Part shown: piece by piece, positions 3,918 through 29,632 of the stretch
How positions within the stretch are numbered: position 1 is the stretch's first letter
How the letters are laid out: each line of letters starts with the position of its first letter
IMG/VR virus record: IMGVR_UViG_3300037264_003938
Span: 1-31,309 of that record
Length of the DNA: 31,309 bases
Source of the DNA: a virus
Strand: one strand, 5' to 3'
Made by a program: the position numbers and the translations under genes
The notes under the pieces: model-generated
The model's input: only the letters and a program-made list of their open reading frames with translations
What the model was told of the DNA's origin: nothing
Databases searched by the model: none

Positions 3918-3928
3918 ACGTTACCACA
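3918..3928 (-). promoter_or_regulatory. TGTGGTAACGT box (leaderless-type promoter)
   Basis: The minus strand reads TGTGGTAACGT, then TCCTCGC, then ATG. It is one of the best matches to the recurrent motif in this phage. Confidence 0.55.
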
Positions 3929-11559: not shown

Positions 11560-13319
11560 GGCGAGGGAGTCCTTCGCGGAGCGCGAGCCGCAGGCTGAGT
11601 GTTCACGGGCGGAGTCACACCGCGGCTCGCCTCGACGTAATTAATGAAGTCAAACTCGACGCCGTACCCATTCCCACGCCAGGAGAACTTCACGTTGGTC
11701 ACGTAGAAAAAGCGCGGGAGTTGAGCCGCCCCGCCGCGGTTCGTAATCGCGATCACGCGCGCAAGGCCAGGGGTGATTCCTCGGTCAGCAATCGCTTGAA
11801 TTTCCTGCTCCAGCGAACGACGCGCGTGATCCGTTAGCTCCCCTACCTGCGGAGCCGTTGTGCTTAGAGGGCGCGTCTCGGTGACAATTTCGATAGCGTC
11901 GCCGGGACGAAGGCGGAGTAGGTCAGGGTCCGCGTTATCACCGCCGAGCGATGCGAGGTCGCGCGTCTCGACAGAACCGCCCATCTCACCGCGTACGATT
12001 TCCTCGAAGATTGCACGAGCCACTTCACGCAGTTTGGTCAAGTCGCGTACGCCAGAAACTACCACACGCGCAACGTTCTCCTCGCTCTGTTGCCCTGACG
12101 GCGCGACACGGCTTCTGCGCGCGCGAGTATTCACACGCGGTGGAGTCTGCTGTTGCTCCGCTTCTGGTGGGTGCTTCACGCGCAGGATTCTGTCGAGCCC
12201 TCGCGAAGTGCTGTCCGTATCGACGGAAACAACCTCTACGACTTGCGCCGCTTGCCCGCCAAACTTGCGGTGAAACGAAAGCGAAGCGATGTTTCTCCCA
12301 TAGGCCATCCGGCGCACGAACAACTCTTCCCCGGAACCGTTTGGCGTGCCGGGGAGCAAACGCGGTCTACCCCCAGCGAATGGTGTAGGAATCCCTGGAC
12401 CACCACGCCTTCGGTCCTGGTCATAGAGCCCTCGAAGCGGACGGATGCGAAGCACTTGGCCCTGAAAATACGGCACGGACCCTGTGAGAAAACACATGCG
12501 AACGATCAAGTCCCAGAACTTGACCTGTGTGCTGTTACCCTGCGGAGCCTGCATCATCCGTCGCCCGCGCTGACCACGCGGATTCGACTGCCGTACCTGC
12601 GTGAGAGCTTCCGTCGTTCCGATGGTGGGGAACGTTCCGTTGGGCCACTCCGTTGCGTCAGCCTCTACGAGAATCCTGCTTCCGAACGGATGACGCGCAA
12701 GGATTTGGCGCACAACGTCAACGATGTTCTGCGTGAGGTCTAGCGCAGTAATCGTCTTTGGTGTGAGCGGAGAGTCGAGGAGCAGCGCGCGAAGGTCGCG
12801 CCCCGAAATCTTCACCGTGCTGCTCTTGTCGTCGTGGTCTACGCGCCACTCATCAATTACGCCGATCATCGAAATCACGCTGGTGCTCGGCGTGAGCTGC
12901 GAGCGCAAAAGCTCCCCGAACTGCGCGCGGCGAAGGATCATCCCCTCCGCGAAGTCCGCTGCGGCGACGGTGTTCATGTAGACCACGACACCAGCAGCGC
13001 GGAGCGTGCGTGGGTCAATCGGGAGGTCTTGATAGCTCAATGTGAGCGAGAACTTCCCCGCGTCACGATAACCGGGAAACTCGATGGAAGCCTCGCGCGG
13101 AACGATACCCTGAGCGTACGAAAGCCGGTCAAGGCTGCTCACATCAAAGAACGCGGGAAGCTCCGTTGCGCGAAGGTTCTGCGTCGTGCGCGGCGCGGCG
13201 TTGAGCTGATCGTTCGACATGAGCGCCGGAAGGTCTGACTCCGCAACGAACGCCTCGTCAAAGCGAAGTCTCAAGTCCACGAGCATAGACGGGTAGTAAA
13301 CGTCGCGCGGTTCTGTCAC
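11556..13319 (-). CDS. Baseplate hub, phage late control gpD-like (587 aa)
   Basis: I start at GTG 13317-13319 (VTEPRDVYYPSMLVDL), which makes a GTGA overlap with the LysM gene. The longer frame would run into that gene. Features of the gpD/gp27-like hub are visible: strands 'RRAQFGELLRSQL' and 'ISMIGVIDEWRVDHDDKSSTVKISGRDLRALLLDSPL', and 'LDLTQNIVDVVRQILARHPFG'. Later come 'SLSFHRKFGG' and 'VARVVVSGVRDLTKLREVARAIFEEIVRGEMGG', with a last strand 'RFFYVTNVKFSWRGNGYGVEFDFINYVEA'. The hub trimer links tube and spike. At 587 residues it is larger than P2 gpD or Mu gp44. Pro/Arg-rich loops around 290-360 and 420-440 may be insertions. Confidence 0.82.
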   Translation of the reverse strand: MTEPRDVYYPSMLVDLRLRFDEAFVAESDLPALMSNDQLNAAPRTTQNLRATELPAFFDVSSLDRLSYAQGIVPREASIEFPGYRDAGKFSLTLSYQDLPIDPRTLRAAGVVVYMNTVAAADFAEGMILRRAQFGELLRSQLTPSTSVISMIGVIDEWRVDHDDKSSTVKISGRDLRALLLDSPLTPKTITALDLTQNIVDVVRQILARHPFGSRILVEADATEWPNGTFPTIGTTEALTQVRQSNPRGQRGRRMMQAPQGNSTQVKFWDLIVRMCFLTGSVPYFQGQVLRIRPLRGLYDQDRRRGGPGIPTPFAGGRPRLLPGTPNGSGEELFVRRMAYGRNIASLSFHRKFGGQAAQVVEVVSVDTDSTSRGLDRILRVKHPPEAEQQQTPPRVNTRARRSRVAPSGQQSEENVARVVVSGVRDLTKLREVARAIFEEIVRGEMGGSVETRDLASLGGDNADPDLLRLRPGDAIEIVTETRPLSTTAPQVGELTDHARRSLEQEIQAIADRGITPGLARVIAITNRGGAAQLPRFFYVTNVKFSWRGNGYGVEFDFINYVEASRGVTPPVNTQPAARAPRRTPSP

Positions 13320-14498: not shown

Positions 14499-16511
14499 TC
14501 AGCGAACTGCGAACAGAGGTGAGAATGCGCTCTGTGTACGGCGTTCCCCGAGCTGTGAAATGTCGTCCGCGAACCCTACAGCGATTCGGTCAGGGTCAAA
14601 CCCTTGCGCGAACTCCTGGGTAATGTCGAACCGCGAGCCACGGAAGTCGTAGTAATTGCCCGCGCGACTGCGCGCCGCAGGAGCAGCCGGGGAAGCTGCT
14701 CTCGCAGCTACGGAAGCAGCCGTCGCCGCTGCTGTTTGCGCAGCGAGCGCGGTAGCTCCAGGCACAGCGGCGGAGGTCGTTGCTGGCGTCCCTCGCGCTG
14801 CGAGCCCTGTGTTGCTTCGGATCATCTCGTCGAGTTGACTCAGCGGGCCATCGAGCCCGCTCGCGAGCCGCCCAATTACAAGACGAATCCCGCGAAGAAA
14901 CTGCCCTATTCCATAGAGTACAAGACCAAATGCTCGACCTAGTGGCTCTACTGCAACGCGCAAAAGAAGCTCAAACGCTGTTCCGAGAAGGCGAGAAATC
15001 GGAAGCATGAACTCCATTAGCACGCTGATGTAACCAAAGATCCCTTCTGTCACACTGCGAAGCCCTGGCGCAATCGCATTGAAAAGCCCCGTCACTGTCT
15101 GAATAACTGGCGTAAGAACAGGACCAATCACGTTCATCAGTCCCTCGAACACAGCCATCACACCAGGAAGAATCCCCGCAGCGAGGTTCCCAAGAACATT
15201 GCTGATCGAAGAGAAAAGCCCTGCTAACGGCTCAATGAACTGTGTGAGCGACCCGAACGCCGCGCTGGTGTTCTCTACGAACATCCGTACCGCATCCGTG
15301 TGGGACATGAACGCGACCGCTGTAGCTCCGATCACCGCGCCGATGGGCCCTAGCGCAGCCGCGCCGAGAGCGGTTCCCGCAGCCATCGCTCCACCGCGGC
15401 GTTGATCTGACGCATCGTTCTCTGCCCCACCACCGTAGATGCGCCCCATCACTCCACCCGCCGTGCGCCCTACGGCCATCAAGCCTTCGAGCGCAGGACT
15501 GTTCGCAATGTCATCGAGTACGTCCGCCACACGCTGAAACCCTCCCGTAAGCGCCGCAATCACAGGGTCCACGTAACCCGAAGCTGTGTCACCAAACGTG
15601 CGGAGAGAACTGGAACTGTTCTGGAGGTAGCGATCTACGGCTTGAAGCGAGGTCTTCATGCGCTCGAACATCGGCGCGGAAGCCGTCATTGCGATAGACC
15701 GAAGCGACGACTTGATGGAGCCTGTAATCGCGTCGAACGTTCCTCCGGCTTCTTCGAGCATCGGGCCAAGGCTCGCCATGCCTGCGTTAAGAATGCGAAC
15801 CCGCTCCGGGCTCGACATGCGGTTGAACGCTTCCGCCGTGAGGTTCGCTTGCCCTCGCACAAGGCGGAGATAGGGCAACATTCGCTGGAATGTGAGCACG
15901 TCAGCCCCGGCGTGCCCGCCGAGCACTTGCTGTAAATCCCTCCCGATTTGCTCCGCGTCCACGCCCATCGTTCGCCCGATAGCGGCGAAGCGGTTCGAGA
16001 AGTTGGTCATCTCGGTCAGCGAGCCGCCCACGGCTTGATTGATCGAAGCAAATCCCGCTGTGAAAACCGTAACGTACTCCTCTGCTTCGCCAGGGAGCGT
16101 CGCGGCTGCGCGGTTGATTTGCTCCAGTGTTTGCGCTGCGATTTGCGCGCCCTGAGCCATGTTCCCAGCTTGACCAAACGCGACGAGCATTCCCGAGAGG
16201 CGCAGGCGCGTACCCTCTGCGGAGGACTGCATCGTTGCCATACTCGTCGTCGCAGCGATCACCCCCGCACCGAGCACAGCAAGCCCACCACCCGCGACCG
16301 AAAGAGCGGAAGATGTAATGCTACCGAGAACGTTCGCCGCGCTCGTTCCTGCTCCTCGAAGCATCCCCAGCGCTCCGCTCGCGCGGGTCACAGGAGCGTT
16401 CATTTGATGAAGGGAACTAGAAGCGCGCGTCGCTGCGGAAGCGATCCGATTCAGCGTCGCCGTACCGCTGTCTTTGACGACAAAATCGTGTTGAACCTTC
16501 TGGTCAGCCAT
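14499..16511 (-). CDS. Tail tape measure protein (670 aa)
   Basis: The ATG at 16509-16511 has TAGACT ending 6 nt upstream. The N-terminus is long and helical ('FVVKDSGTATLNRIASAATRASSSLHQMN'), followed by a hydrophobic Gly/Ala segment around residues 60-95. A middle segment 'EEYVTVFTAGFASINQAVGGSLTEMTNFSNRFAAIGRTMGVD' is typical of tape measures. Two or three further hydrophobic stretches lie at 375-405 and 425-560. The C-terminus is Ala/Ser-rich. Tape measures fill the tail tube, set its length and insert into the membrane on infection. Going by the rule of roughly 1.5 angstrom per residue, this length would give a tail near 100 nm, which is an inference. It directly follows the two chaperone frames, as expected. 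Confidence 0.92.
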   Translation of the reverse strand: MADQKVQHDFVVKDSGTATLNRIASAATRASSSLHQMNAPVTRASGALGMLRGAGTSAANVLGSITSSALSVAGGGLAVLGAGVIAATTSMATMQSSAEGTRLRLSGMLVAFGQAGNMAQGAQIAAQTLEQINRAAATLPGEAEEYVTVFTAGFASINQAVGGSLTEMTNFSNRFAAIGRTMGVDAEQIGRDLQQVLGGHAGADVLTFQRMLPYLRLVRGQANLTAEAFNRMSSPERVRILNAGMASLGPMLEEAGGTFDAITGSIKSSLRSIAMTASAPMFERMKTSLQAVDRYLQNSSSSLRTFGDTASGYVDPVIAALTGGFQRVADVLDDIANSPALEGLMAVGRTAGGVMGRIYGGGAENDASDQRRGGAMAAGTALGAAALGPIGAVIGATAVAFMSHTDAVRMFVENTSAAFGSLTQFIEPLAGLFSSISNVLGNLAAGILPGVMAVFEGLMNVIGPVLTPVIQTVTGLFNAIAPGLRSVTEGIFGYISVLMEFMLPISRLLGTAFELLLRVAVEPLGRAFGLVLYGIGQFLRGIRLVIGRLASGLDGPLSQLDEMIRSNTGLAARGTPATTSAAVPGATALAAQTAAATAASVAARAASPAAPAARSRAGNYYDFRGSRFDITQEFAQGFDPDRIAVGFADDISQLGERRTQSAFSPLFAVR

Positions 16512-16528
16512 GCGGGAAGTCTACCCGC
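16512..16528 (-). promoter_or_regulatory. TAGACT promoter box inside a small hairpin at the tape-measure start
   Basis: The minus strand reads GCGGG-TAGACTT-CCCGC and then ATG. The TAGACT box (16518-16523) sits in the loop of a perfect 5-bp inverted repeat that abuts the start codon. A local transcript would begin at the ATG and lack the hairpin, while a read-through transcript would carry it. Confidence 0.45.
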
Positions 16529-16742
16529 CACCAGAAGCTACAGACTCGCTCATGGAGTCTTTTTCTTGTTGAAGAATCTCTGTGAGAGCGTCCGCGAACC
16601 GCGTCAGGTCACGAATCGTGAGCCGCTTCAGTTCGCCAATCGGTTGATGCCCGTAGCGCCCACAGAACGCTAGCGTTCGCCAGAGCCCGTCCAAAAAGGG
16701 TTCACGCGCGGCCATCGCCACAGCGAACCCTCCCAGCGTCAT
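16521..16742 (-). CDS. Second tail-assembly chaperone frame (73 aa)
   Basis: The ATG at 16740-16742 overlaps the stop of the preceding 121-aa gene (ATGA), and the stop lies 9 bp before the tape-measure ATG. The product (MTLGGFAVAMAAREPFLDGLW) is helical and ends in a long charged helix (RLTIRDLTRFADALTEILQQEKDS). Two short frames between the tube and the tape measure are the hallmark of tail assembly chaperones in Mu, P2 and lambda, where the second is often made as a frameshift extension. Here the frame is also open far upstream (to about 16934), so a frameshift product is possible. I saw no classical slippery heptamer, and simple re-initiation at ATGA is enough. Confidence 0.75.
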   Translation of the reverse strand: MTLGGFAVAMAAREPFLDGLWRTLAFCGRYGHQPIGELKRLTIRDLTRFADALTEILQQEKDSMSESVASGGG

Positions 16743-17104
16743 GCCGTAATGGCGTGGCTCTTGAGAAAATCCTTGACGATTTCCTCCGCTGGATTGTGAA
16801 CGTCCGAGTACGCGGAGAGGATTAACTGGCGAACCTTCGGCGCGACGCGATTCCAGAACTTGTCCAGCGATCCGTCGTGTTGATAGAGCTGCTTCCCATC
16901 GACAGCCCACACCGATTGCTTCGCAAGCTCCCACGCGAGCCTGACCTGTGACGTGCCCGCGCGAGAAGCCGCCATTAGCTCCTCGTTCGCGGTGAGTTCC
17001 ACTATCGTGACGTTCTTGAACTCACAGAATTTCGCGGGAAACGTGTACACATGCTGCACACGCTCCTCACTCCCCACCCCTGCCAATTCGTCCTTGCCGC
17101 TCAT
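16739..17104 (-). CDS. Tail assembly chaperone-like protein (121 aa)
   Basis: The start is ATG 17102-17104 (MSGKDELAG), supported by GGAGG about 5 nt upstream. The longer frame would begin with a TTG that overlaps this Shine-Dalgarno. The protein is helical and charged, with 'VYTFPAKFCEFKNVTIVELTANEELMAASRAG' and 'QVRLAWELAKQSVWAVDGKQLYQHDGSLDKFWNRVAPKVRQLILSAY' in pieces typical of chaperone families that contact the tape measure ('l-rA-e--r-al---dG'). It lies between the tube and tape-measure genes. The role is to bind the tape measure and help polymerise the tube. Assignment rests on position, size and composition. Confidence 0.78.
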   Translation of the reverse strand: MSGKDELAGVGSEERVQHVYTFPAKFCEFKNVTIVELTANEELMAASRAGTSQVRLAWELAKQSVWAVDGKQLYQHDGSLDKFWNRVAPKVRQLILSAYSDVHNPAEEIVKDFLKSHAITA

Positions 17105-17602: not shown

Positions 17603-19585
17603 CTACGCCGCGAGCGGGAGGATGTTCACACCCTCGCCCACTTCAGCCTGAAGAACGATGAAGTCCGCCGTAGCGAGTGTGCGAACACGGATGATGACCA
17701 CAAAGATTCCCTGCGCTTCGAGCGTCGGTGTGTTCCCGCTCACCGGGTCAACCTGGTAGTCAGAAATGCGCTGCGCCGCGGGGTTGTTTGCCGCGAGAAG
17801 CCCAGAGAGGAAAGCGTCACATTCCGCGACGATTCCATCCCTGAGCTGAAGCGTGAGCGGGAGCTTCGAGAACTGCACAAGGCGCTGCGCGATGGAGTCC
17901 TCGATGAAGTCCGCCATGCGACGGCGGTTGATGTTCTTCTGCCCCGCGATGAGTGACGTCGTGATCCCGCTCTGAAACATCGGCCCAATCGTAGGGTCGA
18001 TCTTCGGAGCGCAGATTCCACGCTGGCGGAACGCCGTGTACACGCCCTGGTCAGGAGGAGTGACCCCACGCTGAAACCCGAGCACCGGTGCCATGACAGA
18101 AGGCACTGGGGGAGCGCCCTGCGCCGGGTTTCGCTCCGGAGGGAGGTTCGACATGATCGACGCGAGCCACCCGTCAGAGGTCGTGTCGAGCGTTCCGTCC
18201 GTCACGGTGCTCCCGTCCGCCCCAGCGAGGTTGAAGCCCACGGCTTCGGGCACACTCACGCGCAGACCAGGCCAGTCGTAGATCACACGCTCGTCGCGAT
18301 TCCCGCCCACGCCAGGGTCCGTATCCGCTTGGACGGCGGTGTTCGAGAGCGTAGTCAGCTCGGGGCTGATGCACGCCATGCGCCCTACGCCGTTCTCCGA
18401 CTGCGTGAGAACGTGCGTCCGTAGCTTCGTGCGAATCGTAGAAGACTTCCGCGCTGCCCACAGAATCGACACGTCTCGCTGCGGAAGACTGTCACCGAGG
18501 AGCGAGTCGATAGCGTCCTGGTAGAGCGCGTCAAGCGAAGCGCTATTTACAGCGTTCGGCGCTTGAATCGCTGCGGTGTACGTGAGCGCGCCCGTAGGGT
18601 GCGTGCGAAACTTCAGGTCCGAGAGTGGATCCCACGTTGTCGCCGTTGCCGCTGCGGGAACAACCGTCGGACTGACCGTCGTTGCAGCCGCAATCGTCGC
18701 GTCCAAGGGGCGCGCAGGAAGCCGGTAGCCAGCAACAGCGGAGAGAATGTTCCCTGCTGCTCCCGAGTCGTACGTGCGTTGGAGGTGAAGCCGGAAGGGA
18801 AGGGCTGCGCCCGTGGTCCAATCGAAGCTCGATCCGTCGCGCTTCTGAACCGTGATTTGCGTATCCGCTCCCACGAGTGTGACCGCTGTGATCCGGTACG
18901 TGTCCGCGTTCGCTCCGAGCGCTCCTACACCACCGATCACGCCGAGCACGAAAGCGTCACCCACAGAGATGAGCGAAACGTAGTCCACACCAACAAGCAG
19001 CGCGGTTTGTGTGACGGCTGCTCCCGCTGCGGTCACGGACGCGACGATTCCGCGCGCGTAGTCCACGTCGCCCGAGAACGAGTGGCGCGCTCCGAGCCGT
19101 ATCCGGTTCGCTCCGCTCCTGAACTCTCGCCCAGCAACAACAGTCGCCGCCTGCATCGGTACAACAGGGTTCGGGTCCGTCGCGGTGCGGCACGTCGGTA
19201 GCGTGCGCCATACGCGCGTTCCGCGGTCGGAGCACAGGTTCACGGGCACGAGCACGAGCGCGGAAAACTTCTTCGAGCGCAATTCCACAAAGCCGTTGCC
19301 GCAGTCACCGCCGAACTCCCCAAGGGTGGGGTCGAAACTTCCAACCTTGTTGAGCATGTCCTGCGTCGTGAAGACTTGGACCGGCTGGTGTTTCGTCGCG
19401 ATTTCCCCAGAGCTGTTCGCGAGAACAGCGTAGGTCATGTCCGCGAACTCACCAATGAGCGCCGTTTTCCCGGTGCTCACGCCCTGAATCGAACCGGGCG
19501 GAGGCAGGTCTACGATCACTACGCCTTCGAGCGCGGTAATGACCTCGGTGCCCGGAAAGAACTGATACCTGCGAATGTCGCTCAC
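17603..19585 (-). CDS. Tail sheath protein (660 aa)
   Basis: The GTG at 19583-19585 has GGAGG 4 nt upstream. The N-terminus carries the sheath motif: 'FFPGTEVITALEGVVIVDLPPPGSIQGVSTGKTALIG', then 'EFADM', 'QVFTTQDMLNKVGSFD'. The middle includes 'RYDWP'-type strand sequence ('ERVIYDWPGLRV', 'VMAPVLGF'). The C-terminal domain has 'INRRRMADFIEDSIAQRLVQFSKLPL', 'ECDAFLSGLLA', 'GIFVVIIRVRTLATADFIVLQAEVGEGV', the part conserved among sheaths. Sheath subunits form the contractile outer cylinder. At 660 residues it is larger than P2 FI (396) or Mu L (495), which suggests an inserted surface domain, probably the beta-rich part around residues 150-320. Confidence 0.92.
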   Translation of the reverse strand: MSDIRRYQFFPGTEVITALEGVVIVDLPPPGSIQGVSTGKTALIGEFADMTYAVLANSSGEIATKHQPVQVFTTQDMLNKVGSFDPTLGEFGGDCGNGFVELRSKKFSALVLVPVNLCSDRGTRVWRTLPTCRTATDPNPVVPMQAATVVAGREFRSGANRIRLGARHSFSGDVDYARGIVASVTAAGAAVTQTALLVGVDYVSLISVGDAFVLGVIGGVGALGANADTYRITAVTLVGADTQITVQKRDGSSFDWTTGAALPFRLHLQRTYDSGAAGNILSAVAGYRLPARPLDATIAAATTVSPTVVPAAATATTWDPLSDLKFRTHPTGALTYTAAIQAPNAVNSASLDALYQDAIDSLLGDSLPQRDVSILWAARKSSTIRTKLRTHVLTQSENGVGRMACISPELTTLSNTAVQADTDPGVGGNRDERVIYDWPGLRVSVPEAVGFNLAGADGSTVTDGTLDTTSDGWLASIMSNLPPERNPAQGAPPVPSVMAPVLGFQRGVTPPDQGVYTAFRQRGICAPKIDPTIGPMFQSGITTSLIAGQKNINRRRMADFIEDSIAQRLVQFSKLPLTLQLRDGIVAECDAFLSGLLAANNPAAQRISDYQVDPVSGNTPTLEAQGIFVVIIRVRTLATADFIVLQAEVGEGVNILPLAA

Positions 19586-21856: not shown

Positions 21857-22270
21857 CTACTGGTAGGGATCGAAGTACGGCGAAGGAAGTTCGCGCAGAG
21901 GCTCCAAGAGCTTTTCGTGGGTTTTCAGGAACTCCCCCAGCGACGAAGCACCGCCGTAGCCCGCGGGGTCGATCACTTGCCCTTGCCGGAACATCGTGAA
22001 GTTCCCTCGAAGAGCAGCCTTGAAATCCTTTCGGACCTTCCACCCCACAGGAACGAACGAAGGCTCGGGCGGTGGTTCCGCTTCTGAAGGCTTTGCTGTG
22101 GAAGCCTGGGAAGGTGCTTGTGGGGGCTGAGAAGGGGCTTGCTCGGCGCGCTTCGCGGGAGGCGTAGGCTGACGCTTCCTCGCGCCCCTGGCGGGCTGCT
22201 GGGGCGGTTGCCCCGAAGCTTCCTCGCCTTCGTACTCTTTCAACGCGGCGAGCGGATCACTGTGATTCAT
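21857..22270 (-). CDS. Hypothetical protein with disordered Pro/Gln/Ala N-terminal half (137 aa)
   Basis: The ATG at 22268-22270 has TACAGT ending 6 nt upstream and no Shine-Dalgarno. Residues 15-72 are low-complexity (P, Q, A, K, E), certainly disordered. Residues 73-137 form a compact domain ('FVPVGWKVRKDFKAALRGNFTMFRQGQVIDPAGYGGASSLGEFLKTHEKLLEPL'), with a strand-like start 'GW-V-kdf-a---gn-t-fr-GqVidp'. This small domain looks like the short beta modules of phage head-closure or tail-knob proteins, but I cannot name it. It is the first protein gene after the structured RNA region and starts the connector gene group. Confidence 0.68.
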   Translation of the reverse strand: MNHSDPLAALKEYEGEEASGQPPQQPARGARKRQPTPPAKRAEQAPSQPPQAPSQASTAKPSEAEPPPEPSFVPVGWKVRKDFKAALRGNFTMFRQGQVIDPAGYGGASSLGEFLKTHEKLLEPLRELPSPYFDPYQ

Positions 22271-22276
22271 CCCCGG

Positions 22277-22282
22277 ACTGTA
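22277..22282 (-). promoter_or_regulatory. TACAGT box 6 nt before start (leaderless-type promoter)
   Basis: The minus strand reads TACAGT, CCGGGG, ATG. It lies just after the end of the hairpin-rich RNA region, so it could restart transcription for the connector and tail genes. Confidence 0.5.
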
Positions 22283-22292
22283 GCGCTAGACG

Positions 22293-22334
22293 CGACAAAG
22301 ACGAAGGCCCCCGAGTTTCCCCCAGAGCCCTTCG
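22293..22334 (-). terminator. Possible weak terminator at the end of the RNA locus
   Basis: The minus strand has CGAAGG at 22334-22329 paired with CCTTCG at 22307-22302, a perfect 6-bp stem with a 21-nt G-rich loop, followed by TCTTTGTCG. The U-tract is broken and the loop is large, so termination is only plausible. Confidence 0.3.
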
Positions 22335-22362
22335 CGCGCTGGCGTTCCGCTTCAGCGCTAAA

Positions 22363-22403
22363 CAAGCAGAGCAGTGCTCAACGCCTTACGGTATCACTGC
22401 TTG
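22363..22403 (-). ncRNA. Stem-loop CAAGCAG/CTGCTTG in the RNA locus
   Basis: CAAGCAG at 22403-22397 can pair with CTGCTTG at 22369-22363 (7 bp). GCAGTG/CACTGC is an alternative 6-bp pairing of the same arms, so the element could switch between two forms. TTTAG follows, so it may also be an attenuator. Confidence 0.35.
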
Positions 22404-22415
22404 AGAAGAGACGAG

Positions 22416-22483
22416 GCTGCGTCTCGGTATCGCACCGAGCTTCACGGGGGTCATCCCGCGGGGCGCTTGCCCTCCATCACAGC
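22416..22483 (-). tRNA. tRNA-like cloverleaf with minimal D arm (possible anticodon GAC)
   Basis: On the minus strand the element has an acceptor GCTGTGA/ACGCAGC (six of seven pairs, one wobble) and a D-arm replaced by GGGC-AAGC-GCCC. The anticodon stem is GCGGG/CCCGT (one wobble) with a 6-nt loop ATGACC. The T-arm is perfect, CTCGG-TGCGATA-CCGAG. The T loop starts TGC, as in the nearby tRNA-Met, instead of TTC. If U33 is the T of the loop, the anticodon is GAC (Val). The short anticodon loop and D arm make normal decoding doubtful. It may be a tRNA mimic or a decayed tRNA. Confidence 0.35.
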
Positions 22484-22802
22484 AGAGACGGACACCGTAG
22501 ACACACAGGGAACGCACAGGCGTTTTACGTCTGCCAGAGCGACGAGGTGTTCCCGAGGTCGGCGGGTGAGCCGTCAGGGTGCGACGCGGTTCCAACGCAA
22601 CGAATGCGTGGGTTTGCGACGCGGGTGCAGCAACGAGTGCTGCGGAGTCTCGTCCCGTGGCAAGACCGAGCCGTAAGCTGGTCGGAGACGAGCGGAATGC
22701 TGTGCTCTCGAAGCCAATCGAAGCACGGAATCGAACGAGTCGAATCGCATTCTCTTGGGGGTGAAGCTCCCGAAAGAGCTTCGTCGATGCCGAAGCATCG
22801 GG

Positions 22803-22873
22803 CGCGCTGGATGGAATTGCACCACCGGCCTGAAGGTTATGAGCCTTCCGAGCTGCTACTGCTCCACAGCGTA
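22803..22873 (-). tRNA. tRNA-Met (CAT), degenerate
   Basis: The minus strand folds into a cloverleaf. The D-stem is GAGC/GCTC with loop AGTAGCA. The anticodon stem GAAGG/CCTTC is perfect with loop CTCATAA, anticodon CAT. The variable region is AGGCC. The T-stem GGTGG/CCATC has one wobble and loop TGCAATT. The acceptor TACGCTG/CAGCGCG has five Watson-Crick pairs, one wobble and one A-C mismatch. The D loop lacks the usual GG, the T loop has TGC instead of TTC, and CCA is not encoded. It is either a divergent phage tRNA or a tRNA-like domain of the larger RNA around it. Confidence 0.6.
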
Positions 22874-22959
22874 AAAGTGTCGTGACGTCGCAGCGGCGTT
22901 CGCCTCGGACTGGGGGGGTGAGACCTCGGAGAAGGAAATGCGACGCCACGACGGGAGGA

Positions 22960-22970
22960 AACCTACCACA
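22960..22970 (-). promoter_or_regulatory. TGTGGTAGGTT promoter-like box upstream of the RNA locus
   Basis: The minus strand carries TGTGGTAGGTT, the same core found just upstream of four protein genes. Here no start codon follows at 6-7 nt, and the sequence leads into the tRNA-Met and hairpin array. This supports transcription of the array as an RNA gene. Confidence 0.5.
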
Positions 22971-23008: not shown

Positions 23009-23752
23009 TCACACAGCAAGCTTTCCGGCTTCGTCATCGCTCGCCCCCTTCCACCCCTTCACATCCTCGCCCCACCACGTCAGGCCCCAGCGCGTGTCGA
23101 GGTCGTACGTCGGCATCCCGCGGAAGAGCACACCAGGATTTCCGCCGAGCTTCAGGATGCGCCGGATCACCTCGCGCACAGGAAGATCATAGAGGTCTTC
23201 GGCAACAGCAACGTCGCGCTCGTCACACGCGAGCACAAGCACTTCACGGCTTGAAAGCTCTTTGTCTGCGTAGCGCTCCCGCTGGTGTTTTGCCTCAAAG
23301 CCCAAGCGGAGAAGCTTCTCGGTGTAGAGCGTCGCTTCGATTTCGCAGTAACGCCCCGTACCGCTATCGCAGGAGCGGTGACTATCACCGATGCTCTTGA
23401 ACAAAAGCCACTGCGAGCGCTCCTCTGGAAAGGAAAGAAGCTCTTTTCGTGCGAGCCTTCGTCGCTCCGCGCGCCAATGCTTCTCCTCTTCGAGCATGCT
23501 CCCCACCCAGTTCTCGTAGGGCTTGGCGTACTCTTCTCGGATCGCTTTCACTGCCTCCGCGGTTACGGCGTCGAACGCTTTGTCAAAGCTCTTTCCATGA
23601 TAGCCGCGAATGCGCGCAAGCTCGAAGACAGCCGCTTGGTAGGCGTCGTTCGCAGCCTTGTACCGCGCTGGCTGTTCGCTCGCGTGTTGCTCTTTCACGC
23701 GCTTGTAGTGCTCGAACGCGCGCTGCCACGAAGGAGCGGAAGGAAAGCTCAT
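23009..23752 (-). CDS. Hypothetical protein (247 aa)
   Basis: I start at ATG 23750-23752 (MSFPSAPSW), which overlaps the dCTP deaminase stop (ATGA). The longer frame would lie inside that gene. Residues 1-125 are helical and highly charged ('RAFEHYKRVKEQHASEQPARYKAANDAYQAAVF', 'EEEKHWRAERRRLARKELL'), with coiled-coil potential. Residues 130-190 contain 'FKSIGDSHRSCDSGTGRYCEIEATLYTEKLLRLGFEA', with two cysteines. The C-terminal part has beta strands and 'DTRWGLTWWGEDVKGW', which is Trp-rich. I do not recognise the family. Coupling to the deaminase suggests a nucleotide or host-takeover function and not a virion role, but that is inference. Confidence 0.65.
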   Translation of the reverse strand: MSFPSAPSWQRAFEHYKRVKEQHASEQPARYKAANDAYQAAVFELARIRGYHGKSFDKAFDAVTAEAVKAIREEYAKPYENWVGSMLEEEKHWRAERRRLARKELLSFPEERSQWLLFKSIGDSHRSCDSGTGRYCEIEATLYTEKLLRLGFEAKHQRERYADKELSSREVLVLACDERDVAVAEDLYDLPVREVIRRILKLGGNPGVLFRGMPTYDLDTRWGLTWWGEDVKGWKGASDDEAGKLAV

Positions 23753-24330
23753 CGCTTCTTCTCGTCGCGCGAGCCCTCTGCTCCCTGTTGCCCCTGGTAC
23801 TTCGAGCCAAGCTCCTCGGAGCCGTACATGCGCGTAGGAATGCCTGTGAGTTCGTGCAGAGTGAGCTGACAAATCCGCGCGCCGTATTCGAGCAGCACAG
23901 GCTCGGGCGAGAGGTTGAACAGTTCCAGAACAATCTGACCCGTAAAGCCCGGATCAATCCACCCCGCTTGTTCGATGCAGAGCCCCTTGCGCGCCCACGT
24001 CGAGCGCCCTTCGACGCGCCCCACAAGGTCGTGCGGAATCGTCACCGTTTCGAGCGTGTGAGCGAGCGCGAACATCCCGCGGTAGAGCTTGTAATAAAAG
24101 CCTTTCTCACGCGGAAGAAGTACAAGAGAAGACTTCGGATTACCAACTTCACCTTCCCGCACGTTGAGTGTCTCACCAAGGCGGAGGTCGATTGAGCAGG
24201 GCTGAATCTGAACGTCGTCCGGTGCCGGGTCGATGATGAGACTTCGCCGGTCAAGCTCAATTTTGCCGCCAGGAAGTTCGTTGGCGCGCCAGTGAAGCCG
24301 CGCGCGGAGGGCTGTGTCGTGCAGGATCAT
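23749..24330 (-). CDS. dcd: dCTP deaminase, possibly bifunctional DCD:DUT type (193 aa)
   Basis: This enzyme of the dUTPase superfamily converts dCTP to dUTP, or directly to dUMP in the bifunctional form, and so feeds dTTP synthesis. Visible motifs: 'IQPCSIDLRLGE' (strand near residues 41-52), 'GRVEGRSTWARKGL' with the Ser and Arg of the active site, 'AGWIDPGFTGQIVLELFN' with the catalytic Glu in LEL, and 'GARICQLTLHEL'. The C-terminal lid is 'YGSEELGSKYQGQQGA'. The 'AG-IDPGF-G-I-LEL-N' and 'SKYQGQ' pieces match the Mycobacterium-type DCD:DUT better than E. coli Dcd ('TAHRIDPGWSG'). Length is as in Dcd. It sits with the HNH gene in an accessory block between capsid and connector genes. Confidence 0.9.
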   Translation of the reverse strand: MILHDTALRARLHWRANELPGGKIELDRRSLIIDPAPDDVQIQPCSIDLRLGETLNVREGEVGNPKSSLVLLPREKGFYYKLYRGMFALAHTLETVTIPHDLVGRVEGRSTWARKGLCIEQAGWIDPGFTGQIVLELFNLSPEPVLLEYGARICQLTLHELTGIPTRMYGSEELGSKYQGQQGAEGSRDEKKR

Positions 24331-24345
24331 GCGCGGGAAGGGGCC

Positions 24346-25077
24346 CTAGACCGCGACGAGCGCGCGGACGCGAAGCGCTAGAAGGTCAAGCCCGCGCCGA
24401 GTGCAGAACGCTTCCGGCGACGAGCGCCCCTTGGCGGAGTTGCAGGAACGGCACGAGGGAACGACGTTCCCCGGCGCGTGATCTCCACCGTCAGAGAGCG
24501 GAGTGACGTGCTCCAGGGCGAGCGCCACATCACTTCGAGAACAGTACGCGCAAGCGTTACCAAACGCCTGAAGAACAGCGCTCCAGTGCTTCGCATTGAA
24601 CGTCGGGTGTATACCTGAGAACGTTGCACGGCGGAGCCGCTCGCGCGCTGCGTGCTCCTCTTTCCACTCCTCTTTCGAGTGATACGCGCGTTGGTTTTCT
24701 CTCACTCGATGATCTTTTGCGTACAACCCAGCAGCCTTTTCCCGCAATTCTTCACGATGGGTTTCGCGATACTTCGCCCCATATTCGCGCATCTTTTCCG
24801 GGTGTTCCTTTGCCCACGCGGAAGCAAGTTGTTGCTGTTTTGCCTTACGCTCCGGGCGCTGCGCCTGCTTCTTATCCGCGGCTGCTTTACGCTCCGGGTT
24901 CGCCTTCTGCCACGCAACTGCGCGCTCTTTCGTGCAGAGCTTGCAGTAGTAGCCTAAGCGAGAAGTACCCGAGCGCTTGACAACGTAGAAGTCCGAAGCG
25001 GGCTTCTCGCTGGTGCAGCCGGGGCAGGTTTTAGAGGGGGGAAGATCGAAAGGCAGGTCTTTGGTAGAAGTTTCCAT
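24346..25077 (-). CDS. HNH endonuclease with N-terminal zinc ribbon and charged repeat region (243 aa)
   Basis: The start is ATG 25075-25077 (METSTKDLPFD). A TAGGCT box lies 8 nt upstream and the longer frame begins inside it. Residues 16-45 hold two CxxC pairs ('CPGCTSEKPASDFYVVKRSG', 'YYCKLCTKE'), a zinc ribbon. Residues 50-135 are basic helical repeats of the 'NPERKAA-kk-qrpErkak' and 'HPEKMREYGAKYRETHREELREKA' type, common in phage HNH homing enzymes. The nuclease is at the C-terminus: 'CAYCSRSDVALALEHVTPLSDGG', 'NVVPSCRSCNSAKG', a McrA-like HNH with a zinc CxxC ... CxxC. It is a free-standing nuclease just after the major capsid gene, probably mobile. No intron or intein is seen. Confidence 0.88.
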   Translation of the reverse strand: METSTKDLPFDLPPSKTCPGCTSEKPASDFYVVKRSGTSRLGYYCKLCTKERAVAWQKANPERKAAADKKQAQRPERKAKQQQLASAWAKEHPEKMREYGAKYRETHREELREKAAGLYAKDHRVRENQRAYHSKEEWKEEHAARERLRRATFSGIHPTFNAKHWSAVLQAFGNACAYCSRSDVALALEHVTPLSDGGDHAPGNVVPSCRSCNSAKGRSSPEAFCTRRGLDLLALRVRALVAV

Positions 25078-25085
25078 CAGCGATG

Positions 25086-25091
25086 AGCCTA
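25086..25091 (-). promoter_or_regulatory. TAGGCT box 8 nt before the HNH gene
   Basis: The minus strand reads TAGGCT, 8 nt, ATG. The spacing is 1-3 nt longer than in the other leaderless-type starts, so this one is less certain. Confidence 0.3.
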
Positions 25092-25109
25092 GCACTCATC
25101 GCCAGAAAG

Positions 25110-26513
25110 TCACTCCCCGCCATGCTCGATACACAAGAATCGCTTGTACCGTGCTGCGTCACCAGTCGTAACGTCCGTGCGAGTCGGCCAGTCACCGATG
25201 AACTTCCAGGTGCTCGACACCTTGTCGCCTAGACGGTTCTGCGGCGCTCGGATGTAGACCTGAACGCGGTCGGTGTTCACTTCCACGCCGTTGTTGGTGA
25301 TGCGTGGCTCCGCGATCTTGCCCTGAACACCGGCGTCCGTGAGGAGCGCATCGAGTTCGAGGTAGTACTCGAAGATTCCGCCCTGTCCGTAGAAGATCGG
25401 GCGGTGAATCGTGACACCCGCGGGGTTGGTCAGCTCGCCGGGGAACGGGTCTGCGGGCGAATACCCTGCCGGATTTCCTCCCGTGTTAATGACCGTCTCT
25501 GGCAAAGGCACTTCGTTGTTGCGGAAGAACACCGTACCGAGGAGCGCTCCAATCGCGAAGTCCTGGTACATGTACGAGTCAGGCATCGCCGTGAGAAGGC
25601 GCTGAAACTCCGCGCTCTCGAAAATCTGCGCTTCGCTCGACGGGTCGAAGTGACAGTGAAAGCGCCGGTCGGGCATCGCCGGGACGTTCGAGCGGCGGAA
25701 GCGCGCGAGCGCTCCGCGAAGCTCGGTGAGTGTGAGCAGGTTCGTGTTCGTCACGTCATCGACGCGCAGGCCACCACCCACGCGAATGATCTTCGCGCGG
25801 TCATCGGAGAGCACGTAGTCGCGCGCGCTCATCGCGGTAGCGAGCCCAGCGCCCAGCGTCAGCGTTCCCGGTCCCGTCGTGTCTCCCGCCGTATCAGGCG
25901 TGAACCCCACCACGGTATTCGCGTCACCGAGGGGGCCAAGACGGATCTTGAGCGGATTGCTCACCGTCACCGTGTCGAACATCACGGGCGAGCCCGCAGG
26001 AAGGTCAGGACGGCGAGCCGTCGTGAAGCCCTGAAGGCGCGCCACGCGAATGGTCGTAGCCGCAAGCAAAGCGCTCGCAGTCACGACCGTGTGCCCACCG
26101 AGCCCCGCGCGATACATCGCATTGCGGACCAAGCGGTTCATCTTCTGCGCCGCTTGAAGCCCAAGCTTCTGCATGTTCTCCATGAAGAGGTTCGCGAGCG
26201 CGACGACGGACGTACACATGTCCGAGTCAATCGTGTCCGCGTACTTCTGCACGGTCGCTGACCATTGCTCCGCTTCGTACACCTGGGGGATGGGGTCGTT
26301 TCCCGGACGAAGCGGTCGAAGGTCCACGGGGAGCAGTCCCGTAGCCGACTGCACAATCGTGTCACCGAGGTTGCCCGGAAACACGATTGGCGAAACCGCC
26401 ATGCGGAAGAGCATGTTCGGGAAAAGCGCGTCGTGAAACGCCCGGTCCAAGAGCCTGTCTTGAACGAGTGCCCGCGCCGTCGGCGTCTCGGTGATGATTG
26501 AGAAATCGTACAT
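25110..26513 (-). CDS. Major capsid protein (467 aa)
   Basis: The start is ATG 26511-26513, with GAG/GGAG 7-11 nt upstream. It begins MYDFSIITETPTARALVQD and has the marks of an HK97-fold shell protein: 'PIVFPGNLGDTIVQSATGLL' (extended arm/P-loop region), a long spine helix region 'TSVVALANLFMENMQKLGLQAAQKMNRLVRNAMYRAG', and 'LTLTELRGALARFRRSNVPAMPDRRFHCHFDP' followed by 'FESAEFQRLL'. The late part is typical A-domain sequence ('TIHRPIFYGQGGIFEYYLE', 'VQVYIRAPQNRLGD', 'WKFIGDWPTRTDV'). It follows the scaffold gene directly, as in many phages. No delta-domain or protease site is evident, which fits a separate scaffold. Confidence 0.88.
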   Translation of the reverse strand: MYDFSIITETPTARALVQDRLLDRAFHDALFPNMLFRMAVSPIVFPGNLGDTIVQSATGLLPVDLRPLRPGNDPIPQVYEAEQWSATVQKYADTIDSDMCTSVVALANLFMENMQKLGLQAAQKMNRLVRNAMYRAGLGGHTVVTASALLAATTIRVARLQGFTTARRPDLPAGSPVMFDTVTVSNPLKIRLGPLGDANTVVGFTPDTAGDTTGPGTLTLGAGLATAMSARDYVLSDDRAKIIRVGGGLRVDDVTNTNLLTLTELRGALARFRRSNVPAMPDRRFHCHFDPSSEAQIFESAEFQRLLTAMPDSYMYQDFAIGALLGTVFFRNNEVPLPETVINTGGNPAGYSPADPFPGELTNPAGVTIHRPIFYGQGGIFEYYLELDALLTDAGVQGKIAEPRITNNGVEVNTDRVQVYIRAPQNRLGDKVSSTWKFIGDWPTRTDVTTGDAARYKRFLCIEHGGE

Positions 26514-29621: not shown

Positions 29622-29632
29622 ACGCTACCACA
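29622..29632 (-). promoter_or_regulatory. TGTGGTAGCGT box (leaderless-type promoter)
   Basis: The minus strand reads TGTGGTAGCGT, then TCGCCCT, then ATG. The 11-base core is identical to the box at 2122-2132, more than 27 kb away. Confidence 0.55.

Follow-up and report, generated by a model that had tools for sequence, protein, structure and literature searches.

The question raised by this locus is whether a stretch without a convincing ORF, lying among the structural genes of an uncultured phage, encodes a large structured RNA and, if so, of which family. The locus is located in IMGVR_UViG_3300037264_003938, a 31-kb virus contig carrying minus-strand genes with head and tail functions; the entire stretch of 31,309 nucleotides was analysed and is called the window below. 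The first-pass annotation had described an array of stems with a tRNA-Met and a second cloverleaf, and had proposed a member or distant relative of the phage RNAs GOLLD and ROOL, or a new class. The layout around the locus is as follows.

14499-16511, minus strand: tape measure gene
17603-19585, minus strand: tail sheath gene
21857-22270, minus strand: downstream protein gene (137 aa), homologues of which come after the RNA element in relatives (tblastn, L113 and L128)
22275-22970, minus strand: non-coding RNA locus, within some 740 nt that show no codon signal in any of the frames, flanked by genes 21857-22270 and 23009-23752
22800-22873, minus strand: tRNA-Met (CAT), initiator-like, with the unusual T-loop TGCAATT (ARAGORN; Rfam tRNA model, 44.8 bits)
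22964-22970, minus strand: TGTGGTA box upstream of the tRNA-RNA unit, a putative promoter or regulatory element
23009-25095, minus strand: three genes between the major capsid protein (MCP) gene and the RNA, outside the RNA (unknown protein, dCTP deaminase-like, HNH-like)
23009-23752, minus strand: gene forming part of this insertion, along with 23749-24330 and 24346-25095
23749-24330 and 24346-25095, minus strand: dCTP deaminase-like and HNH-like genes, HNH being read from sequence alone
25110-26513, minus strand: MCP gene (phrog_1357), the syntenic anchor

The gene order MCP, RNA, homologue of 21857-22270 is kept in the window, with three genes added after the MCP gene; this insertion is not found at the same place in most relatives. 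A candidate reading frame of the locus, ORF 22386-22949 (187 aa), has a codon log-odds of 0.001, compared with 0.02-0.30 in the genes of this phage, and overlaps a tRNA gene encoded on its own strand, which bears out the view that no convincing ORF is present. A conserved protein frame across the region was looked for as well, and none was found. A DNA similarity search of phage records with the locus matched nothing except the tRNA, and the proteins of 23009-23752 and 21857-22270 retrieved no relatives as peptide-scan queries.

The tRNA-Met was recovered by both ARAGORN and Rfam. The second cloverleaf was not, as an Rfam cmscan of the window with permissive filters returned no further tRNA at E ≤ 5, and relaxed ARAGORN runs gave noise. 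The locus thus holds one tRNA, and not the two or more of a pure tRNA array. The TGTGGTA sequence described upstream of the locus is present (22970-22964). Across the whole window it occurs six times on the minus strand (2126-2132, 2509-2515, 3922-3928, 12060-12066, which lies within a gene, 22964-22970, and 29626-29632) and never on the plus strand. The copies at 2509-2515 and 2126-2132 stand 10-12 nt ahead of gene ATG codons, and the boxes may serve this phage as a promoter or in regulation.

The stems named in the first-pass annotation exist, including the C(UUCG)G hairpin (22800-22785), the 8-bp stem 22692-22685/22656-22649, and the two 6-bp hairpins (22643-22627 and 22439-22423). Their number does not exceed chance: short perfect hairpins, for example, count 3 against 1.1 expected, and 8% of dinucleotide shuffles equal that. 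The folding energy of the locus gave z-scores of -2.41 (521 nt), -2.64 (726 nt, 20 shuffles only), and -3.3 (family comparison run), while values of -3 to -7 are seen for some 300-nt tiles elsewhere in the window, which is mostly coding. With a chance-like hairpin count and a moderate z-score, the case for a structured RNA from the window sequence by itself is modest and only suggestive; comparison makes it firm. A match to CRISPR-DR33 at 22374-22410, a single hairpin scoring 28 bits against a cut-off of 39, was judged to be due to chance. As a separate observation, the strongest folding signals of the window are found at 16501-16800 (minus strand, z -7.0) and 26101-26400 (plus strand, z -5.5). 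The former lies in and beside the poorly supported ORF 16521-16934, a neighbour of the tape measure gene.

Queries of IMG/VR with the MCP and sheath proteins yielded over a hundred relatives, with the MCP relatives being the best 80 of more than 200. In one of these, L114, a non-coding gap of 610 nt extends from the MCP gene to the homologue of 21857-22270; a tRNA-Met comes first, followed by a hairpin array, and the gap folds with a z-score of -5.7. In the 75 relatives in which the distance from MCP to the following gene could be measured, it is 300-670 nt in 47, 207-288 nt in 7, and ≤150 nt in 21. The 47 long gaps show a mean z-score of -4.35, with 32 of them below -3, compared with -0.49 and -1.42 for coding sequence of the same length from the downstream gene and from MCP, respectively. 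Cultured phages whose MCPs are distantly related were also inspected: Kromp (31%) has 58 nt after MCP, phiKX1 (27%) has no gap, and motif A, described below, occurs in neither. In tblastn searches with the window sheath protein, the sheath genes of L043 and L048 were split by interruptions of roughly 1.3 kb, for which inserted domains, inteins or introns are possible.

All-against-all comparison of the divergent elements revealed repeated 30-nt matches, many with 87-100% identity, which correspond to one hairpin. This hairpin, motif A, runs from a variable outer stem through GCAAACCC, an inner stem-loop and NGGAACCGC to the partner strand of the outer stem; its internal-loop bases are invariant. 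Among 40 distinct sequences, single positions of the outer stem show as many as six standard pair types, with 81% of cells paired. Both sides had changed in 125 cells (both helices), compared with 44.5 after shuffling, and the covariation score is 0.550, compared with 0.130 for shuffled alignments and at most 0.143 for slid controls. Since the inner stem alone served as the filter for these sequences, the 100% pairing of the inner helix is partly a matter of choice; the outer helix is unselected. A motif A model built without the window scored 39.2 bits (E 3.5e-8) at 22577-22626 in the window, where the runner-up in 31 kb reached 12.5 bits.

The distribution of motif A ties it to the capsid gene. 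A sequence-only pattern was scanned over all viral contigs of IMG/VR, giving counts that are lower bounds: at least 38 matches outside the window have an inner stem of ≥4 bp, and 38 of the 38 listed are located just downstream of the MCP gene of this clade. The other listed matches are mostly stemless, and their number is about what chance would give. Over 1 Mb of sequence from relatives, cmsearch gave 18 matches, every one inside the MCP-downstream interval, with none in the 21 short-gap relatives. No whole contig contains more than one copy. Motif A is absent, by the models used, from 18 long-gap relatives, some of which may therefore hold something else.

Further structure was found beyond motif A. 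The 3' domain of 27 members contains an H-type pseudoknot of the form CCC-UA-CGGYC-GGG-(2-6 nt)-GRCCG. An automatic finder of H-type pseudoknots gave mixed results, so the set used here (A3) was anchored by eye on CCC..GGG; this biases the percentage paired towards the structure, and the double changes are more telling. These occur at seven of the eight pairs, 39 in all compared with 9.5 after shuffling, and the score is 0.554 compared with 0.152. The pseudoknot model (R2) found no credible match in the window, and other members likewise lack the pseudoknot or have a different form (motif B types). From the sequences compared, the pseudoknot is frequent in the family but does not define it. 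In five closer relatives, a full-length consensus comprises 115 pairs, 35 of which show a compensatory double change; its last part is a long, closed domain with multiple branches, after which CUUUU follows. Compensatory changes in related phages, on which the original proposal depended, are hence found in motif A, in the pseudoknot, and in this five-member subgroup. Upstream of motif A, a helix-hairpin-GCCA arrangement (motif C) is found in 18 of 36 elements, compared with a shuffled mean of 7.5 and a maximum of 15 in 60 runs; its helix in the window has 8 bp. The whole upstream half could not be aligned across the family with MAFFT, its lengths being too variable.

Judged by these comparisons, motif A of the window is firm and its motif C is tentative. 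The parts of the window RNA, in 5' to 3' order, are listed below.

22879-22952, minus strand: 14-bp stem 22952-22939/22892-22879 around about 46 nt, directly 5' of the tRNA (single-sequence MFE and centroid)
22785-22800, minus strand: CGAUGC-UUCG-GCAUCG hairpin (sequence)
22763-22782, minus strand: GAAGCUC/GAGCUUC hairpin
22695-22752, minus strand: branched element closed by GAAUGC/GCAUUC, with two inner hairpins (single-sequence MFE and centroid)
22649-22692, minus strand: tentative motif C candidate, an 8-bp helix around a hairpin, with GCCA before the 3' arm
22627-22643, minus strand: GCAGCA-CUCGU-UGCUGC hairpin in the interval between motifs C and A; many relatives have a similarly placed hairpin
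22577-22626, minus strand: motif A, with outer stem, GCAAACCC, inner stem-loop, UGGAACCGC, and outer stem (alignment, covariation, covariance model)
22508-22554, minus strand: weak candidate 3' arm identified by eye, GGGAAC (22554-22549) with GUUCCC (22513-22508)
22275-22507, minus strand: 3' region with more hairpins (e.g., 22439-22423 and 22403-22363), reaching gene 21857-22270 (single-sequence folding)

The 14-bp stem had been overlooked in the first-pass annotation. The candidate 3' arm encloses CGUC..GACGUAAAAC, reminiscent of motif B in L014 and L114, which hints weakly at a possible pseudoknot. No homology was found for the 3' region 22275-22507, which is extra compared with most relatives and would belong either to the RNA proper or to its linker.

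The tRNA next to the window RNA is found in few members of the family. Among 82 element sequences, which are partly non-independent, only those of the window and L114 have a tRNA-Met on their 5' side, and L216 has one in a relaxed form; the tRNA is thus no fixed component of the RNA family. The tRNA is a companion of some members and stands outside the family definition. In 18 other IMG/VR contigs (L057-L074), tRNA-Met genes have the same anticodon-loop and T-loop pattern, some of them in large tRNA clusters; these contigs have nothing in common with the RNA element beyond the tRNA. The initiator-like tRNA-Met genes of the window, L057-L074, L114 (2567-2641), and L216 form a phage family of their own, with the non-canonical T-loops TGCAATT, TGCAAGT, and TGCGACT, which lack the usual TTC.

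The large phage RNAs GOLLD and ROOL often occur near tRNAs, and both were recently shown to form RNA-only nanocages (Nature 2025, PMC12286853). The GOLLD cage is a 14-mer and the ROOL cage an octamer; GOLLD env-38 sits downstream of a Met-tRNA, the GOLLD linker can carry tRNAs, and ROOL env-120 has a length of 659 nt (PMC12286853). The new family resembles GOLLD in being a large, multi-domain, pseudoknotted phage RNA that can be accompanied by a Met-tRNA. It differs in size (about 350-650 nt, compared with often more than 800 nt for GOLLD) and in its place at the capsid gene, whereas GOLLD is found in tRNA islands. With ROOL it shares a similar size, phage encoding, and a pseudoknot, but it has a fixed locus beside MCP, and a tRNA stands next to few members only. 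The models of neither RNA match: in an Rfam 15 cmscan of the window, which included GOLLD and ROOL, only the tRNA was credible at E ≤ 5, and for L114 and ten other members relaxed filters gave no meaningful match and none to GOLLD or ROOL, whether at the gathering score or up to E 2-5. In Vibrio phage ICP1, a very abundant unclassified transcript of roughly 800 nt is likewise large and ORF-less (PMC7567579), but it adjoins the lysis cluster and has no tRNA. Motif A is absent from the ICP1 stretch at 75-115 kb, which includes a 1-kb gap. The pRNA of phi29-type phages is a phage RNA linked to head functions; it is much smaller than the new RNA, with no shared motif recognised. A capsid-adjacent RNA such as the one described here is undescribed in the open papers searched, the coverage of which is incomplete. 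Since the kind is like GOLLD and ROOL while Rfam matches none of it and these papers are silent, the comparisons identify a new family within a known kind, the large ornate RNAs of phages; it is absent from Rfam and is carried by dozens of uncultured phages behind their capsid gene. Of the original alternatives, membership in GOLLD or ROOL found no support, and the new class is the one that the results bear out.

That a real family of large structured RNAs is present is very probable. At the family level, the elements are hundreds of nucleotides long, non-coding, and covarying in a complex fold with a pseudoknot, as in ornate RNAs; in the window only motif A is firm. Decay of a tRNA array or gene, leaving no function besides the tRNA-Met, would fit the one good tRNA, the low coding signal, and the chance-like hairpin count of the window. 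It is extremely improbable, because compensatory changes and invariant bases are seen across phages that have diverged widely, the window included, and because no further tRNA was found. Hardly more credible is a GOLLD or ROOL so divergent that the Rfam models would miss it: size, phage location, and Met-tRNA company are alike, but Rfam is silent on the window, L114, and ten more members even with relaxed filters. A tree of 84 MCP proteins informs the history of the RNA. Carriers of motif A are scattered over it and include the deep branch L038, and the short-gap state requires seven changes, at least five of them forced by well-supported branches (the bootstrap is not fully settled). On the simplest reading, the RNA would be old in the clade and several times lost. 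Such repeated loss suggests a helpful accessory rather than an essential component; in the passage of PMC7567579 that cites Harris and Breaker, GOLLD is described as non-essential in one prophage.

The reading that is, on balance, favoured combines the family with a mechanism: a vertically inherited RNA downstream of MCP in uncultured contractile-tailed phages, acting late and in trans in the manner of GOLLD and ROOL. Its gene position and the TGTGGTA box suggest that it would be transcribed late, along with the head and tail genes. In the window, RNA and initiator-like tRNA would probably share one transcript starting from the box at 22970. The RNA would then be cut free from the mRNA and, by analogy with GOLLD and ROOL, act in trans as a compact fold, possibly a self-assembling particle. 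The main rival, which is somewhat unlikely, gives the RNA a role in cis within the late mRNA: as a long structured spacer, it would protect or process the 3' end of the strongly expressed capsid mRNA and tune the downstream genes. In all members found, the RNA comes after MCP on the same strand and the downstream gene follows at once; this fixed position is compatible with a cis role, as are T-runs of 4-7, resembling partial terminators, within 45 nt before the downstream gene in 19 of 47 elements. Against this, the window has three genes, and L115 an HNH gene, between MCP and the RNA, which is thus not tied to the MCP stop codon. A multi-domain fold of 350-600 nt with invariant loop bases and a pseudoknot also goes far beyond the needs of a spacer, for which 26-150 nt suffices in many relatives. 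An assembly or packaging RNA, binding prohead, portal or motor like pRNA or being packaged in virions, would account for the strict MCP synteny and the late operon position. It is nevertheless quite improbable, as the RNA was repeatedly lost where capsid and tail genes stay and known pRNA is far smaller. It is also unlikely, if slightly less so, that the family is a new and independent class of self-assembling RNA particle, whose place beside MCP would reflect a direct role in virion formation or the holding of initiator tRNA for late translation.

The signature motif of the family, its link to the capsid gene, and its repeated loss together provide a natural presence/absence experiment, in a genomic context that GOLLD and ROOL lack. 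The family also indicates that uncultured phages contain further large structured RNAs outside Rfam.
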